A stretch of DNA of 64,000 nucleotides, from NCBI GenBank assembly GCA_947466425.1, contig CANIBZ010000002.1, positions 1 to 64,000 on the forward strand, written 5' to 3'. Position 1 is the first letter of the stretch. Each line of letters starts with the position of its first letter. The DNA comes from Flavobacteriales bacterium (lineage in GTDB: Bacteria; Bacteroidota; Bacteroidia; Flavobacteriales_D; Sanyastnellaceae). Below the pieces are notes generated by a model, which did no database searches, had not been told where the DNA came from, and was given only the letters and a program-made list of their open reading frames with translations. The translations under genes and the position numbers were made by a program. This document shows positions 1 to 59,594 of this stretch, one piece after another.

Positions 1-1004
1 ATCGCGAGATCTAAGCGACGTAAAATTTCTTTTCGAAGGGAAGAGGGTTTCAACACTTCAACTTCATTTCCATAACTGAGAATGAAATTGTATAACTCTT
101 GACAAGGATGCAATTCAAATTGAAAAACAGTTCCTTCTTTCGATTCTTTAATTTTCTTTTGTGAAGAATGAAGGGGTTGCGTTTCTACCAGCTTTGCAGC
201 AACCGTTGAAAATCGAAGTTCAATTTTCTCGGGCTTACCGGTGCTTTCAGAAATTCCCATGCTGTATTTGAAAAACGTTTCCGGAGAAAATCCTTTCGGG
301 ACGGTGAACTTCGTTTTGCTTGATTCAATAGAAACAATGCGCTCCAAGCCGAATGTCAAAATCTTTTCGCGCTCAGGTACAAACGCAACTAGGTACCAGC
401 GATTCAAATATTCTTTCAACAGCAACGGATGAATCGTGTATTGCTTCACTTCATTCTCTTTGAAGCTCTGGTAGAAAAGCGTGCAGGCCGTTTTCGATTT
501 TGCAGCTTCAAGCAACGGACCAAGAAATTCGTTTCCCTGACTTACTGTGCTTGTTTCAAACTGAATTAACGCTTTGTGTTTCTCTTCTTCAATAGATGAA
601 TTCAAGTTTACGCGTTGAATGATTTTATCAACGGCACTTTCGTATTGAGAAAGAAGAGGTACATGACGAAACTGATTTAAGATAGCAGCAGCGAATCGAA
701 TGGCTTCAATGTCTTCGTCGACAAGGTTTAATTCGTTGATCGAATAATCTTCTTCGGTATAGTGATATCCCTTGTGAGTTCTGTGGTATTCGATAGGGGC
801 GTAGTAGCCTAGCTCATTTTCGTTCTTCATAGCCCATATGTCTTTGTCTATGGTGCTCAATGAAATCTGATCGGCTCCAGAGCCGTACAACGCATCTGCA
901 CAAGCCTCACGCAAATCTTCTCTACTGGGGAAGGATTTCCCTTTGTTCGTTAAACAACGATCAATGATTCGGTAGCGAAGAAGTGCGTATTTATTGGCCG
1001 GCAT
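1..1004 (-). CDS. WYL-domain transcriptional regulator, partial (C-terminus off the left edge)
   Basis: Reverse-strand reading from ATG at 1004: MPANKYALLRYRIIDRCLTNKGKSFPSREDLREACADALYGSGADQISLSTIDKDIWAMKNENELGYYAPIEYHRTHKGYHYTEEDYSINELNLVDEDIEAIRFAA..., typical of Bacteroidota WYL regulators. Absent from the ORF track because no stop lies in the window. Confidence 0.7.
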   Translation of the reverse strand, partial: MPANKYALLRYRIIDRCLTNKGKSFPSREDLREACADALYGSGADQISLSTIDKDIWAMKNENELGYYAPIEYHRTHKGYHYTEEDYSINELNLVDEDIEAIRFAAAILNQFRHVPLLSQYESAVDKIIQRVNLNSSIEEEKHKALIQFETSTVSQGNEFLGPLLEAAKSKTACTLFYQSFKENEVKQYTIHPLLLKEYLNRWYLVAFVPEREKILTFGLERIVSIESSKTKFTVPKGFSPETFFKYSMGISESTGKPEKIELRFSTVAAKLVETQPLHSSQKKIKESKEGTVFQFELHPCQELYNFILSYGNEVEVLKPSSLRKEILRRLDLA

Positions 1005-1011
1005 TTTTTAA

Positions 1012-1398
1012 TTAGAATGGCAAGTCGTCTCCATCTGCGTTGTTATCCGATGGATTCTCGTTCATGACTGGAGCAGAAATTGGAGCAGATGAATTGCCCA
1101 TGGTTGAAGGGTTACTTGCTGAAGTATTTCCTGCAGCAGCAATATCCATAGTCCACATATCCAATGAAACGAAGTGTCTTCCGTTATACTCTCTTCCACG
1201 AAGATTGAATTTCACTTTCACCACATCGTTTTCCTTGAAATTTTTCAAGACATCAATTTTTTCTTTTGCTGCTTGAACAAGGATTTCCTGTGGGTAACGC
1301 TCGTCTGTGCGAACCACAAATTCTTGAATACTGAATCCGCTAGGGAAGGATTTTGTTTCGTAGAACTTAACTAAAGTTCCGGTTAATTCTAATGACAT
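1012..1398 (-). CDS. DUF3127-like protein, SSB-like, with DDLPF C-terminus
   Basis: ORF MSLELTGTLVKFYETKSFPSGFSIQEFVVRTDERYPQEI...DDLPF; OB-fold-like N-terminus, Asn/Ser-rich linker and acidic tip resembling SSB. Confidence 0.7.
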   Translation of the reverse strand: MSLELTGTLVKFYETKSFPSGFSIQEFVVRTDERYPQEILVQAAKEKIDVLKNFKENDVVKVKFNLRGREYNGRHFVSLDMWTMDIAAAGNTSASNPSTMGNSSAPISAPVMNENPSDNNADGDDLPF

Positions 1399-1453
1399 AA
1401 TACTGATTGTTTAGTAGCAACGAATATCGGAATTCTTGTTAGGATTCGAAAGC

Positions 1454-1734
1454 AATTGTTATGAACAATTCGCCCGAATGTTGCATAGCAACGAATGTCC
1501 GAAGGACTAATGTTGGCAGAGCCAACGAATGTGCAAAAGCACGAATGTCCGAAGGACGAATGTTGACTCTGTCAACGAATGCGGGAGGCGAATGTCTGGC
1601 GACTTAAATTAATCTTACGAAGTATCGTCTTCGACATTCGTTGGTGAAACCAACATTCGCCATTGGGCATTCGTCGAAGACATTCGTTGGCTCTGCCAAC
1701 ATTAGTCCTTCGGACATTAGTTGCTATGCAACAT
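1454..1734. repeat. Mini-hairpin array 1: variable hairpins on a CGAATG/CTAATG linker, folded into a larger inverted repeat
   Basis: Left half: AATTGTTatgAACAATT, TTGCataGCAA, TCCgaaGGA, TTGGCagaGCCAA, TGCaaaaGCA, TCCgaaGGA, TTGACtctGTCAA separated by CGAATG/CTAATG. Right half carries CATTCG/CATTAG linkers with TTGGTgaaACCAA, TTGGCtctGCCAA, TCCttcGGA, TTGCtatGCAA. 1481-1532 is the reverse complement of 1680-1731 with one mismatch. Confidence 0.93.
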
Positions 1735-2983
1735 TTTTTTTCTCGCGGAAGAGGATAACAAATAAGATGAGCACCACCAACGAATAACCGGCGAAACACA
1801 ACCAGGTGCTGTGCCAATCGATTTGTGCGATTTGTTTTCCGTTTTCGCCAGGGATGTAAGTTGTGAAATATTTTTCCATTACCCAGCCACTTGCGCGACT
1901 TCCAAAGACAGCTCCCACACCGTTTACCATCATGGTGAATAAGCCTTGCGCGCTTGCACGAATGCTTGGCTCAACGCTTTTTTCAATGAACAAAGATCCT
2001 GAAATATTAAAGAAGTCGAAGGCCATTCCGTAGATAATACACGACAACACAATCATCCACAATCCACCAGCAGGATCTCCGTATGCAAACAGTCCAAAAC
2101 GAAGAACCCATGCCACCATGCTAATAATCATGATTTGCTTAATTCCGAATCTCTTCATGAAAAATGGAATGGCTAGAATAAAGAGGGTTTCAGAGATTTG
2201 AGCAATGCTTGAAATAATAGCCGGATACTGAACAGCTAAAGGTTTTGGGTCTGAATACAAATTATCGAAGCTGTGCAAGAACACATCTCCGTAAGCATTC
2301 GTCAATTGCAACGCTGCACCCAACAACATCGCAAACAAGAAGAAAATCGCATAGCGGTAATTTTTAAACATCGAAAAGGCATGCAATCCAAAGGCTTGCA
2401 AATATCCTTTATGCTCCATGTTCTTTCCTAAAGGCGGACAAGCCGGTAGGGTGAAGGAATAAATTCCAAGAACCAAAGAAGCAATTCCACCTAAATAAAA
2501 CTGAAAGGCATGTGTTTCGTTTCCGGTTAAACTTACCGTCCACAGCGCGACAATAAATCCAACCGTTCCCCAAACACGAATAGGTGGAAAGACTTTCACC
2601 ACATCAATTCCTGGTTCGCGAGATAAAATGGCATAGGCTACAGTGTTCGATAAGGAGATGGTTGGCATATAAAACACCATGGTTAATAAGATTCTCCAGA
2701 ACATTTCGTCTGGAGTAGAAGATGCAGGGACAAAGAATAAGCAAATACCACCAAGTATATGAAGCACTCCGTAAAGCTTTTCCGCGTTAATGTATCGGTC
2801 GGAAAGTATTCCAGCAATAGCTGGCATAAATAGGGCAGAGATACCCATAGTAGAGAAGATCACTCCAAATTGATCAGGGCCCCATTGTTTGGTTTCAAAC
2901 CAAAAAGCACCAATCGTAATTAACCAACATCCCCAAATAAAAAACTGAAGAAAACTTAATGCGGTGAGACGTTGCTTAATCAT
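1724..2983 (-). CDS. MFS transporter, nucleoside:H+ symporter-like
   Basis: 419 aa, 12-TM-like hydrophobic pattern; MIKQRLTALSFLQFFIWGCWLITIGAFWFETKQWGPDQFGVIFSTMG resembles NupG-type permeases. Confidence 0.8.
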   Translation of the reverse strand: MIKQRLTALSFLQFFIWGCWLITIGAFWFETKQWGPDQFGVIFSTMGISALFMPAIAGILSDRYINAEKLYGVLHILGGICLFFVPASSTPDEMFWRILLTMVFYMPTISLSNTVAYAILSREPGIDVVKVFPPIRVWGTVGFIVALWTVSLTGNETHAFQFYLGGIASLVLGIYSFTLPACPPLGKNMEHKGYLQAFGLHAFSMFKNYRYAIFFLFAMLLGAALQLTNAYGDVFLHSFDNLYSDPKPLAVQYPAIISSIAQISETLFILAIPFFMKRFGIKQIMIISMVAWVLRFGLFAYGDPAGGLWMIVLSCIIYGMAFDFFNISGSLFIEKSVEPSIRASAQGLFTMMVNGVGAVFGSRASGWVMEKYFTTYIPGENGKQIAQIDWHSTWLCFAGYSLVVLILFVILFREKKNVA

Positions 2984-2994
2984 GTTGAATGAGT

Positions 2995-3885
2995 TTAGTT
3001 GTTAAAGGCCAAAAGCGTACACGCCGCTTCCGTTGTTTTTTTAAGTCTTAGTAATTCAGCTGCACGCGCATGAAGCGCTTGTTCCAACGCCTCTGCTTTT
3101 CCTTCATGTTCTAAAAATAGGTCAGAAAGCTCTATTAATTTATATTCATTCACATCGGTCTCGTTCGGAAGGGCTTGCAGATTGCCCAGCATGCCTAAAT
3201 CATTACCTGTTAAAATCTTTGAAAAGCGAATGTCCTCGGGCAATGCATCGATTCCAATTCCAATTTTTTCATTGGGTTTCGGAACTTCAAACAATCCATC
3301 AATAGCTCTAACATAATAGTCTCCTCCAGCACGCGCCACAAGATCGGCCTTGAGCATGTCTATTCTTCCGTTTTCATCGAGAATGGAATCGTTGATGTGA
3401 ACACGAACAATTTCGCATACCACCAAATTTCCTGCTCCTCCTTCGGTTCCGAGCTCAATCACTTCTTTCACTTTACATTCCAACTGAATCGGAGATTCAG
3501 CAACACGCGGAACGCTTATGGCTTCAGAAGCCAATTCAGTCACTCCGGCTTTAATGAATTCATTTACTCCGGCTGGGTATTCAACGCTGCTTAGCGAACA
3601 TTGCTGAACCAAGCTATAATTGACAATGTTGATTACGCATTCTGGAACGCGCTTCACATTTTCATACGTGTGCTTGGTCGTGTTATCGCGTCCTCTGCGT
3701 GCAGGAGAGAATATAGCAATGGGAGGATTCGCTGAAAACACATTGAAGAAACTGAACGGAGAAAGATTCGGTGTTCCGCTTTCATCAACGGTGCTCACCC
3801 ATGCAATGGGTCTTGGAGCAACGCTGCCTAAAAGAAGTTGATGCAATTTCCCAACGGGAATTTCACCGGGAATAAATGTGGCCAT
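2995..3885 (-). CDS. flavin reductase family protein (FMN-binding split barrel)
   Basis: VGKLHQLLLGSVAPRPIAWVSTVDESGTPNLSPFSFFNVFSANPPIAIFSP is diagnostic of the family. Confidence 0.88.
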   Translation of the reverse strand: MATFIPGEIPVGKLHQLLLGSVAPRPIAWVSTVDESGTPNLSPFSFFNVFSANPPIAIFSPARRGRDNTTKHTYENVKRVPECVINIVNYSLVQQCSLSSVEYPAGVNEFIKAGVTELASEAISVPRVAESPIQLECKVKEVIELGTEGGAGNLVVCEIVRVHINDSILDENGRIDMLKADLVARAGGDYYVRAIDGLFEVPKPNEKIGIGIDALPEDIRFSKILTGNDLGMLGNLQALPNETDVNEYKLIELSDLFLEHEGKAEALEQALHARAAELLRLKKTTEAACTLLAFNN

Positions 3886-3886
3886 A

Positions 3887-4402
3887 TTATTTTTTTGAAA
3901 GCGCTTCCACTTCGGAAACGGAGTCCATGACTTTTTTCTTCAATTCATCTTTGAATTGCGCTATGCGTTGCATCAATTGCGCGTCGGCAACGGCTACAAT
4001 TTGCGCGGCAAGAATTCCTGCGTTACGCGCACCATCGAGGGCAACGGTTGCAACGGGAACTCCAGCTGGCATTTGTAGAATACTTAGAACGCTGTCCCAT
4101 CCGTCGATACTATTCGAAGATTTAATTGGAACACCAATAACAGGAAGGGGCGTGAGAGAAGCAGTCATTCCTGGTAAATGCGCCGCCCCACCGGCTCCGG
4201 CTATAATTACCTGAACTCCTCTACTGGCGGCGCCCTTGGCATACTCGAACATGCGGTCAGGCGTGCGATGTGCGCTAACTACACTAATTTCAAAGGGGAC
4301 GTTCAACAGGGAAAGAACATCTGCAGCTTCTTGCATAATGCGCAAGTCGCTATTACTTCCCATTATAATTCCTACCATAGTCTTTATTGTTTGTGTCGTC
4401 AC
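3887..4402 (-). CDS. purE: 5-(carboxyamino)imidazole ribonucleotide mutase
   Basis: VGIIMGSNSDLRIMQEAADVLSLLNVPFEISVVSAHRTPDRMFEYAKGAASRGVQVIIAGAGGAAHLPGM motif. Confidence 0.96.
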   Translation of the reverse strand: MTTQTIKTMVGIIMGSNSDLRIMQEAADVLSLLNVPFEISVVSAHRTPDRMFEYAKGAASRGVQVIIAGAGGAAHLPGMTASLTPLPVIGVPIKSSNSIDGWDSVLSILQMPAGVPVATVALDGARNAGILAAQIVAVADAQLMQRIAQFKDELKKKVMDSVSEVEALSKK

Positions 4403-32265: not shown

Positions 32266-32886
32266 TTAATCGTTTAGTCCTTTACCGTTGAAGATGGCTT
32301 CCATGCACTTTTCTATTCGAGAAAGGCGAGTGGCAGATTGCTTGGCTTGAGAGAAGTGTAGTAAGTATCCGCGTTGTCTACCTGGAGTTAATTTCTCGAA
32401 TGCCGCTTTCAATTCAGGAAGTTCTTTGAATTTATTTTTCAATTCATCGGGTATGGGGTATTCCGATGTTTTCTTCGCTTCGACTTTTGCTCCTGATTTT
32501 TCAATTTCAGTAGCCTCGAAGATGTATTGAAGAATTGTCTTTTTAATTTTTAAAATTTCTTTTGCATTCGTGAATCGAAGTTGTCTTCCTGAATTCGTAT
32601 TCTCAGTGGGTTGAACCAATAGTTGTTCAGGATCGCTGAGCAAGGCTCCTTTGAAAAACATGACCGTTGAGTATTCCTTGAAACTGCCTAGCATGAAAAT
32701 GTTTTTCTTTTTGAAGGTATAGGCGGGAAATCCCCATTTAATTTCCTCGTCTAAGCCAGTTTCTAGCGCTATTTCTCGAAGCGCCTTCATTTCTGAATTC
32801 CGAATAATGATTCGACATTGCGGGGTGCCGACGAGTTTGCATCTGCCGCAGCCTTCTTCGAGTATGATGTCTACTTGAGGGTTCAT
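32266..32886 (-). CDS. YdeI/OmpD-associated family protein (DUF1801 plus YdeI-like region)
   Basis: IKWGFPAYTFKKKNIFMLGSFKEYSTVMFFKGALLSDPE...LTPGRQRGYLLHFSQAKQSATRLSRIEKCMEAIFNGKG. Confidence 0.87.
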   Translation of the reverse strand: MNPQVDIILEEGCGRCKLVGTPQCRIIIRNSEMKALREIALETGLDEEIKWGFPAYTFKKKNIFMLGSFKEYSTVMFFKGALLSDPEQLLVQPTENTNSGRQLRFTNAKEILKIKKTILQYIFEATEIEKSGAKVEAKKTSEYPIPDELKNKFKELPELKAAFEKLTPGRQRGYLLHFSQAKQSATRLSRIEKCMEAIFNGKGLND

Positions 32887-32890
32887 GATG

Positions 32891-32959
32891 TATCAAAGAT
32901 ACGAATGTCCTGTGGACTAATGTGCGAAGCACGAATGTCCTGCTGACGAATGCCGATGG
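32891..32959. repeat. Mini-hairpin array 2 (CGAATG linker family)
   Basis: TATCaaaGATA-CGAATG-TCCtgtGGA-CTAATG-TGCgaaGCA-CGAATG-TCctgctGA-CGAATG-CCgatGG. Confidence 0.88.
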
Positions 32960-32997
32960 CGAGTCTTTGAAAAGGGAAGAAAAGGTAAGATTAATCG

Positions 32998-55754: not shown

Positions 55755-55798
55755 ATGAGTTGAATGAAAATCAAATATACAAAACGCAAAGCGATAGT

Positions 55799-55939
55799 TC
55801 CACTTTGTGGATTAATCCCGAAGGGATATATCCGCTCTGCGGACCAATCCGCTTCGCGGACTTATCCTGAAAGGACTTATCCGCTTCGCGGACTTATCCT
55901 GAAAGGACTTATCCGCTTCGCGGACTTATCCCGAAGGGA
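55799..55939. repeat. Mini-hairpin array 4: nine perfect hairpins on 4-nt linkers
   Basis: TCCACtttGTGGA-TTAA-TCCCgaaGGGA-TATA-TCCGCtctGCGGA-CCAA-TCCGCttcGCGGA-CTTA-TCCTgaaAGGA-CTTA-TCCGCttcGCGGA-CTTA-TCCTgaaAGGA-CTTA-TCCGCttcGCGGA-CTTA-TCCCgaaGGGA. Confidence 0.96.
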
Positions 55940-55940
55940 A

Positions 55941-56357
55941 TTAGATGTACTTCGCCAAAAACTTATTATGCTCGTGACGAAGATCGTTAATAGTCGTCTC
56001 CAAAGAAGTATAACGATCACGCAAAGCGTCATGCAGGACAAGCGTTTCGGCATAAATGTGTTGTGCCATTGTTATAGCTTCGGAGCTAACTTTTTTTGCG
56101 AATGAACCGATATCATGTGCTAATTGATCTATATTGTTTCGTTGGACGATGAATTGATTTTGAAAGTGTTCGACATTCTCTTTCAATTCGGCCATTGAAT
56201 TATACATGCCAGAAACATCGCTTAGTCGGTGGTTGTGAATTTGCAATTCTTGCTTGTAGAATATCAGTCCGCGCTGCCAATCGTTTTGCTCGTTGCTCAT
56301 TCTTGAGATGTGAAAAGTGTTGTGTTTAGACATAAATGGTGTTATTTGTAGAAACAA
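55941..56357 (-). CDS. hypothetical protein, helical
   Basis: 138 aa; predicted helical and coiled-coil-like; no family recognised. Confidence 0.58.
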   Translation of the reverse strand: MFLQITPFMSKHNTFHISRMSNEQNDWQRGLIFYKQELQIHNHRLSDVSGMYNSMAELKENVEHFQNQFIVQRNNIDQLAHDIGSFAKKVSSEAITMAQHIYAETLVLHDALRDRYTSLETTINDLRHEHNKFLAKYI

Positions 56358-56452
56358 ATTTCATTTTATTATTGAAAAGTGGGCATGACGCAAGTCAAGG
56401 TTGGCGGTGAAAGTTGTCAATGTAGTAGCTAGAATTAATGATTCGATAATAC

Positions 56453-59089: not shown

Positions 59090-59103
59090 TCGCGAAGCAA
59101 TCG

Positions 59104-59153
59104 TCGAAGACATTAGCCTCCGGCATTCGTTGCTCTGCAACATTCGCCTTCGG
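59104..59153. repeat. Mini-hairpin array 3 (CATTCG/CATTAG linker, reverse orientation of arrays 1-left and 2)
   Basis: TCgaaGA-CATTAG-CCtccGG-CATTCG-TTGCtctGCAA-CATTCG-CCttcGG, ending 1 nt before the stop of the 59154-59594 gene. Confidence 0.9.
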
Positions 59154-59594
59154 CTATTTGATCATCTTTTTCAGATAATCCAAAATACTATCTTCCAGCC
59201 CCGCCATATCGCTTAACTCAATTTCCAACGACCGCGTTGAATTAATTAATTCAATTAATGAAAGAAATAGAGAAGCGCAGAATAAAATTAGTGCGGTTGC
59301 AAAAGTGAATTCCGCAATGTTCATCTCTTCGCGATATATGAAATACATGGAAACAATGGCAAATGTGAAGCTGAGTACGCCAAATATCTGCATGTTTTTG
59401 ATCAGGCGTAATCTGAATTTTAAGTTCTTTATTTGCGCGTAGAGTAGGGCGGCTTCCTTGGGCTCACGTCCTTTATAGCGGTCGTGAAGACTGCGGATTA
59501 CGTTAGCCAAAGCAAGAAAACGATTGGTGTAGGCCAACATGATTAGGCTAATTGCCGGAAACAATAATGCAGGGGTGTTAATAGTTATGTCCAT
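59154..59594 (-). CDS. DUF2721 family membrane protein
   Basis: FPAISLIMLAYTNRFLALANVIRSLHDRYKG...RLIKNMQIFGVLSFTFAIVSMYFIY. Confidence 0.85.
   Translation of the reverse strand: MDITINTPALLFPAISLIMLAYTNRFLALANVIRSLHDRYKGREPKEAALLYAQIKNLKFRLRLIKNMQIFGVLSFTFAIVSMYFIYREEMNIAEFTFATALILFCASLFLSLIELINSTRSLEIELSDMAGLEDSILDYLKKMIK

Follow-up and report, generated by a model that had tools for sequence, protein, structure and literature searches.

One genus of uncultured freshwater Flavobacteriales carries a repeat family that is specific to it, the GAAT arrays. Each unit consists of the tetranucleotide GAAT or TAAT and a perfect hairpin of 3-6 bp with a C-NNN-G loop, and units follow one another head to tail 3-11 times. 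Pairing and linker are kept between sister species, loops drift, and loop statistics point to hairpins of single-stranded DNA. The window, by which we mean the whole 64,000-nucleotide stretch of DNA that was analysed, contains a two-armed member of the family at 1454-1735, where hairpins joined by a constant linker form a left array, followed by an AT-rich core and an oppositely oriented right array. The following features of the window are relevant here.

1012-1398, minus strand: SSB-like gene of 128 aa, downstream, with its start codon ~80 bp from the left array
1454-1470, no strand assigned: outer hairpin AATTGTT-atg-AACAATT, which is conserved here in G001 and G004
1475-1596, plus strand: left array in GAAT orientation, hairpins at 1480-1492, 1497-1507, 1512-1526, 1531-1542, 1547-1557 and 1562-1576
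1477-1532, plus strand: left arm of the inverted repeat, 56 nt long and 98% complementary to the right arm at 1680-1735
1601-1629, minus strand: central AT-rich core GACTTAAATTAATCTTACGAAGTATCGTC, which contains the 22-nt motif CTTCGYAADATTAATTWAAGTC
1627-1735, minus strand: right array, in GAAT orientation on the minus strand, hairpins at 1627-1635, 1640-1654, 1674-1680, 1686-1700, 1705-1715 and 1720-1732
1680-1735, minus strand: right inverted arm
1724-2983, minus strand: MFS-type transporter gene, C-terminus ...KKNVA and stop
32882-32972, plus strand: second class A (GAAT) array, 3-4 hairpins
55785-55860, no strand assigned: array of another class, TCC..GGA hairpins (TCCGC-NNN-GCGGA) with linkers TTA, ATA, CCAA and similar
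59091-59166, minus strand: third class A array, longer at orthologous sites (5 units at L066, 3 units at L103)

The first-pass annotation had described the element at 1454-1735 as hairpins strung on a constant CGAATG linker. Every hairpin that it named was located, and the constancy of the linkers, the compensating variation of the arms and the mostly 3-nt loops were all confirmed. The linker is shorter than proposed, however: the outer C and G of CGAATG base-pair within the neighbouring hairpins, so that the linker is the 4-nt GAAT or TAAT, each hairpin runs from G to C, and the unit is one linker plus one such hairpin. GAAT/TAAT joints connect the left-array hairpins from 1480 to 1576, after which the units are degenerate, and the outer hairpin is linked to the array by CGCC, not GAAT. 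The TAG stop codon of the MFS-type gene falls inside hairpin TTGCATAGCAA, the first of the right array. Folded as single-stranded DNA the element reaches -101 kcal/mol (z -17.4) and as RNA it has a z of -17.3; in either case 0 of 200 shuffles equalled it. The array at 55785 opens a stretch of ~530 bp (55785-56428 region) that is missing from the orthologous G001 site.

Two levels of symmetry, small palindromes within a large one, had also been claimed and do exist at this locus, where the 56-nt arms differ by 1 mismatch. As a trait of the family the large palindrome does not hold: most arrays are one-armed, and since the two-armed form with the 22-nt core is present at just two loci of the source genome, we rejected it as a hallmark. 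The one further copy of the core motif in that genome lies at C31:24447-24468, within the second two-armed array; the motif is found at 2 loci each in G000, G001 and G004 and at 1 locus in G003. The interior of the window locus has the opposite orientation in G001 to that in G000 and G004, as expected from recombination or fold-back between inverted arms. The two-armed element of the window would represent an inverted duplication of the kind that recombining arms produce.

Arrays of this design are far more frequent than chance allows. The strict linker-hairpin-linker pattern CKAATGT-N4..22-ACKAATG has 130 matches in the 2.59-Mb source genome, against 2 for the reversed pattern that served as control. 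Within the sampled source-genome stretches, which surround pattern matches and are therefore biased toward arrays rather than covering the whole genome, 144 of 160 inter-linker segments form perfect hairpins, where letter shuffling predicts 11.8. The window alone has 5 clusters of at least three C-NNN-G hairpins, compared with 0.2 in dinucleotide shuffles. The genome-wide search that the first-pass annotation had called for thus did not return linker-joined hairpins at the shuffled level.

The composition of the family was determined from 122 distinct arrays with at least three hairpins (3-11 units, genus-wide). Their linkers are GAAT 510 times, TAAT 82 times and GAGG 25 times, with few others, the minor linkers of this class being GAGG, GAGT, TAGG and GAAG. 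About 15-20 distinct stems share the common linker and form a restricted vocabulary that is reused at many loci. The arrays are polar: the last hairpin is GTCTTCGAC (GTCttcGAC) in 53 of the 122, and this hairpin is seldom found elsewhere (p 4e-22, with an approximate inner total), while a purine-rich stretch, GGTAAGA..GAGGGGAAGAATG, often lies upstream of the first unit.

The single linker design suggested by the window element applies to the GAAT class, but that class is only one among several in the genome. In another class of the source genome the linker TG joins A..T hairpins; in a further one the linkers CCAAC, CTAAC, CCAAT and GGAAT join hairpins of the AAC-NNN-GTT type, often immediately after a GAAT array. 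Additional classes use the linker TCAT, or have TCC..GGA hairpins with different linkers, such as the array at 55785-55860. One AAC-NNN-GTT array (L033 823-1116) is open as a repetitive reading frame (..CWNYVVGT..), a likely source of spurious hypothetical proteins. At L134 1768-1860 (G005:C1), TTC-gta-GAA and TGC-ttc-GCA hairpins with the linker TCT constitute yet another class, possibly within coding sequence.

The nine genomes of the genus have 130, 99, 83, 63, 58, 19, 13, 6 and 2 pattern matches. The genome with 2, which is at control level, is G007, the most distant by its EtfB protein (78% amino-acid identity, versus 96-97% for the remaining genomes with a located EtfB gene). Few matches (13 and 6) were also seen in G002 and G008, close relatives with assemblies of 1.6-1.7 Mb that are 71-84% complete; their scarcity may reflect loss with genome reduction, or else independent gain in the other genomes. 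In other genera of this family and order the pattern does not rise above control level. When ~85,000 species genomes were scanned for the commonest unit, CKAATGTTGCNNNGCAACKAATG, 48 stretches were recovered, all in ~8 Flavobacteriales/Bacteroidetes MAGs (some with misnamed species) bar one single match in Alginatibacterium, and on this near-confinement we rejected the idea of a widespread element. Mini-hairpin clusters showed no excess in 20-kb samples of 15 other genera; other linker classes may occur elsewhere. IMG/VR held 0 matches to the most frequent unit type and PLSDB 0 matches to the window element, on which a phage or plasmid origin was rejected. With no match in Rfam or in these two collections, the statement that the element belongs to no standard family was borne out.

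The loops of the hairpins follow a rule. Across all classes, 714 of 824 triloops (87%) are GNA, TNC, ANA or TNT and so read purine-N-A on either one strand or the other, where chance would give 25% (4 of the 16 loop-end combinations). Among hairpins with stems of at least 4 bp, a C-G closing pair is present in 121 of 175 array hairpins versus 224 of 1131 isolated ones, and among such C-closed hairpins the loop rule is obeyed by 108 of 121 in arrays and by 88 of 224 isolated in the same DNA (p 1e-20). Among DNA triloops, ANA is the second stable type. C-GNA-G forms a DNA mini-hairpin of extraordinary stability that resists nucleases and has a G-A pair within the loop (PMC4686876). Imperfect stems contain 7 G.T and 6 A.C mismatches; RNA selection would accept G-U, and G.T pairs that are no commoner than A.C leave no RNA-strand signature and argue against maintenance at the RNA level. 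The array hairpin thus appears to matter, or to have mattered, as DNA. Changed loops conform to the rule less frequently than unchanged ones (32/46 versus 132/150, p 0.006, based on 23 units), as if it were imposed at the birth of a unit and not maintained. With loop statistics that point to hairpins of single-stranded DNA, the way in which such repeats are born, whether by DNA copying, transposition or RNA selection, becomes testable by sequence statistics and simple in vitro assays.

A comparison of 55 orthologous hairpins with sister species, using units that are perfect in one species and aligned without gaps, showed differences at 15 of 472 stem positions (3%), 18 of 440 linker positions (4%) and 44 of 165 loop positions (27%). 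For fourfold degenerate sites of the genes next to the arrays the figure is 37.5%. Pairing and linker are thus kept, and loops drift nearly neutrally. Two-sided stem changes are few and are mostly found at replaced units or in the inverted element. Insertions and deletions comprise whole units: 31 nt at L036:6004 correspond to two units, and 13 and 15 nt at L034:7754 to one each. Entire arrays also come and go. The site of the array at L030:15136-15200 is empty in G005, where the flanking genes are almost adjacent; at L039:9602 G001 retains just a short AAC-class remnant; and at L041:5548 a TG-class array substitutes in one species. At L111, a near-empty site, no duplicated target sequence can be seen. 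The arrays can serve as fast strain markers and as a natural hairpin collection for studies of deletion and inversion between short repeats. Those stems and linkers that are retained are strongly conserved, more than a bias at birth would explain by itself, which points to selection by the host or to frequent re-copying; conservation in place within arrays that can be lost as wholes is covered by no single explanation.

Nearly all of the ~51 class A arrays in the sampled source-genome stretches are extragenic. In GAAT orientation, and with simple ORFs as gene calls, 32 of 50 lie behind a gene on the same strand, at a median of ~12 nt past the stop codon, and their spacers split 19/25/6, convergent ones being over-represented and divergent ones under-represented (chi-square p 0.012). 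Among arrays between co-directional genes, 13 share the direction of the genes and 12 oppose it. In 420 kb of G005, with ten intergenic clusters, the preference for 3' ends did not recur. An intrinsic terminator has a G+C-rich hairpin and a T run on the strand of its gene; in the arrays the last hairpin, GTC-TTC-GAC, is weak and is often followed by a T-rich stretch (GATTTT). Rfam gave no match for window positions 1-4000 even at E 1, and for seven array-rich loci it returned just a tRNA and a SAM riboswitch, no array being matched; a known structured RNA family was rejected because no match at the arrays exceeded the gathering cut-off. The SAM riboswitch (RF00162, 78 bits), at L032 11850-11953 on the minus strand, adjoins a GAAT array.

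We favour, with about even confidence, the reading that the arrays are genus-specific interspersed palindromic repeats whose units are born and copied at the DNA level via single-stranded hairpins, are reshuffled, and have possibly been spread by a Y1/HUH enzyme. Units would arise and be copied as DNA, with single-stranded hairpins as intermediates; replication forks, where C-GNA-G and C-ANA-G fold-backs would be favoured, are one possible setting. The short linker repeats on either side of a hairpin would permit loss or duplication of units by slippage or unequal recombination, and recombining inverted arms would flip or enlarge an element. A REP-like mobiliser of the Y1/HUH type that reads tetranucleotide plus hairpin may have spread the units. 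Arrays would be tolerated mainly at the 3' ends of genes and may also serve there as REP-like hairpin barriers. Somewhat improbable, and put forward tentatively, is a broader proposal in which a DNA-level process makes mini-hairpins as such: C-GNA-G and C-ANA-G fold-backs would be copied to perfect palindromes and strung on class-specific tetranucleotides, and the classes would arise, swap at sites and spread through intergenic DNA.

The position of the arrays just past stop codons, their spacer distribution, the strong stem conservation and the T-rich stretch after the last hairpin would all suit functional 3'-UTR RNA, in which terminators or barriers to 3'-5' exonucleases have their pairing preserved by RNA selection. 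We consider this rather improbable, as array orientation is indifferent to that of co-directional genes, G.T and A.C mismatches are equally rare, orthologous sites lack whole arrays, no Rfam family matches, and G005 shows no context bias, albeit on few arrays. Transposition has a precedent in IS608, where the guide GR, GAAT, lies 5' of the hairpin IPR and the cleavage site CR is TCAA (PMC5934647). The class A linker has the letters of the former and the class B linker, read in one way, those of the latter, IS200-like TnpA genes occur in G000, G001, G004 and G005 (4 of the nine genomes), and at three loci (L060, L061, L062) an array lies within ~400 bp of one; IS200-type TnpA is the nearest candidate transposase for the arrays. 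That they are themselves REP/REPIN-type non-autonomous transposons of an IS200-like Y1 transposase (TnpA or RAYT), which would take the GAAT in front of (5' to) each hairpin as its guide tetranucleotide, is nevertheless unlikely. The proteins are IS200 transposases (IS200 equivalog), a single one reaching 22 bits with the REP-associated model against a cut-off of 80. G003, 96% complete and with 83 matches, has no Y1 gene, though bins often lose IS copies; the genes at L060 and L062 are related and may not be independent; and identity of four letters is weak evidence where stems are too variable for a single REP class. IS200-like TnpA genes are situated amid hairpin-rich DNA at L060 1318-1419, on both gene sides at L062, at L041 ~5700 and at L047 ~6650. 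Both sides of the L062 gene carry CCCCCAGCTTCACTGGGGG..ATACCCATGCC..CTCGC-aaa-GCGAG, a palindrome dispersed elsewhere too, which has the look of a distinct repeat of REP or TIR type.

Gene conversion among arrays could also have made inert repeat debris uniform, with neither birth bias nor host function. A limited stem vocabulary common to many loci, loops that switch between members of that vocabulary, and different classes at the same site in different species speak for it, but if whole units were converted, loops should be made uniform along with stems, and they diverge ~8x more; the loop rule is left unexplained, and we regard this account as quite unlikely. Binding sites for a protein on double-stranded DNA seem barely credible: half-sites such as TTGC-N3-GCAA do resemble operator dyads, but stem sequence and length (3-6 bp) vary, units are irregularly spaced, and the loop rule has no role.

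Palindromic repeats in bacteria usually consist of one hairpin or a pair, belong to a single sequence class and are linked to one transposase. The genus described here has several classes of hairpin strings in which linker and pairing are kept, stems are interchangeable and loops drift. A CRISPR-like array was rejected because the intervening segments are perfect palindromes and the invariant part is only 4 nt; the gene-per-array layout of the integron attC type was not seen in eight mapped stretches; and MITEs, with terminal inverted repeats and target-site duplication, are not matched by arrays that are mostly one-armed and polar and leave no duplication at L111. A search of the open-access literature found no description of mini-hairpin strings on a constant tetranucleotide in several classes.

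Repetitive hairpin elements of sponge mitochondria (PMC2800124) are likewise lineage-specific and intergenic, with conserved stems, variable loops and tandem insertions that yield multi-hairpins; they are organellar, have stems of 10-18 bp and no constant 4-nt linker, and are not known to follow a triloop rule. LIMP of the Lobosphaera mitochondrion (PMC4524435) is also a palindrome with internal repeats, present in both orientations and tied to rearrangements, but it has one long stem of pentanucleotide repeats and an invariant 7-nt loop, the opposite of fixed stems and linkers with free loops. The ends of IS608 (PMC5934647) share a GAAT guide that immediately precedes, on its 5' side, a small DNA hairpin, and their cleavage site is TCAA; there, one hairpin stands at each end of a full transposon, whereas GAAT arrays have many hairpins and no gene. 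CGTC-tagged palindromes, or RPE (PMC3733652), are similarly tagged and lack a dedicated transposase, but their tag is different and their palindromes measure 20-40 bp, in contrast to strings of mini-hairpins.

The closest resemblance is to REP, BIME and REPIN sequences. Like these, GAAT arrays are extragenic, interspersed and palindromic, occur in many copies (130 matches), place a tetranucleotide beside a hairpin, form inverted pairs, undergo compensatory changes, are often found just past stop codons and have a possible Y1 transposase link. They differ in carrying GAAT/TAAT instead of the GTAG or CGTC tag, in having many interchangeable stems (~15-20 on one linker) in place of one conserved palindrome per class, and in their hairpins of 9-15 nt with 3-nt loops that run head to tail 3-11 times in several linker classes per genome. 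REP/REPIN elements flank a RAYT gene; here no RAYT has so far exceeded the cut-off, Y1 TnpA occurs in 4/9 genomes, and arrays lie near three of the genes. GAAT arrays are best read as interspersed palindromic repeats of a new, REP-like form that arise and are reshuffled at the DNA level.
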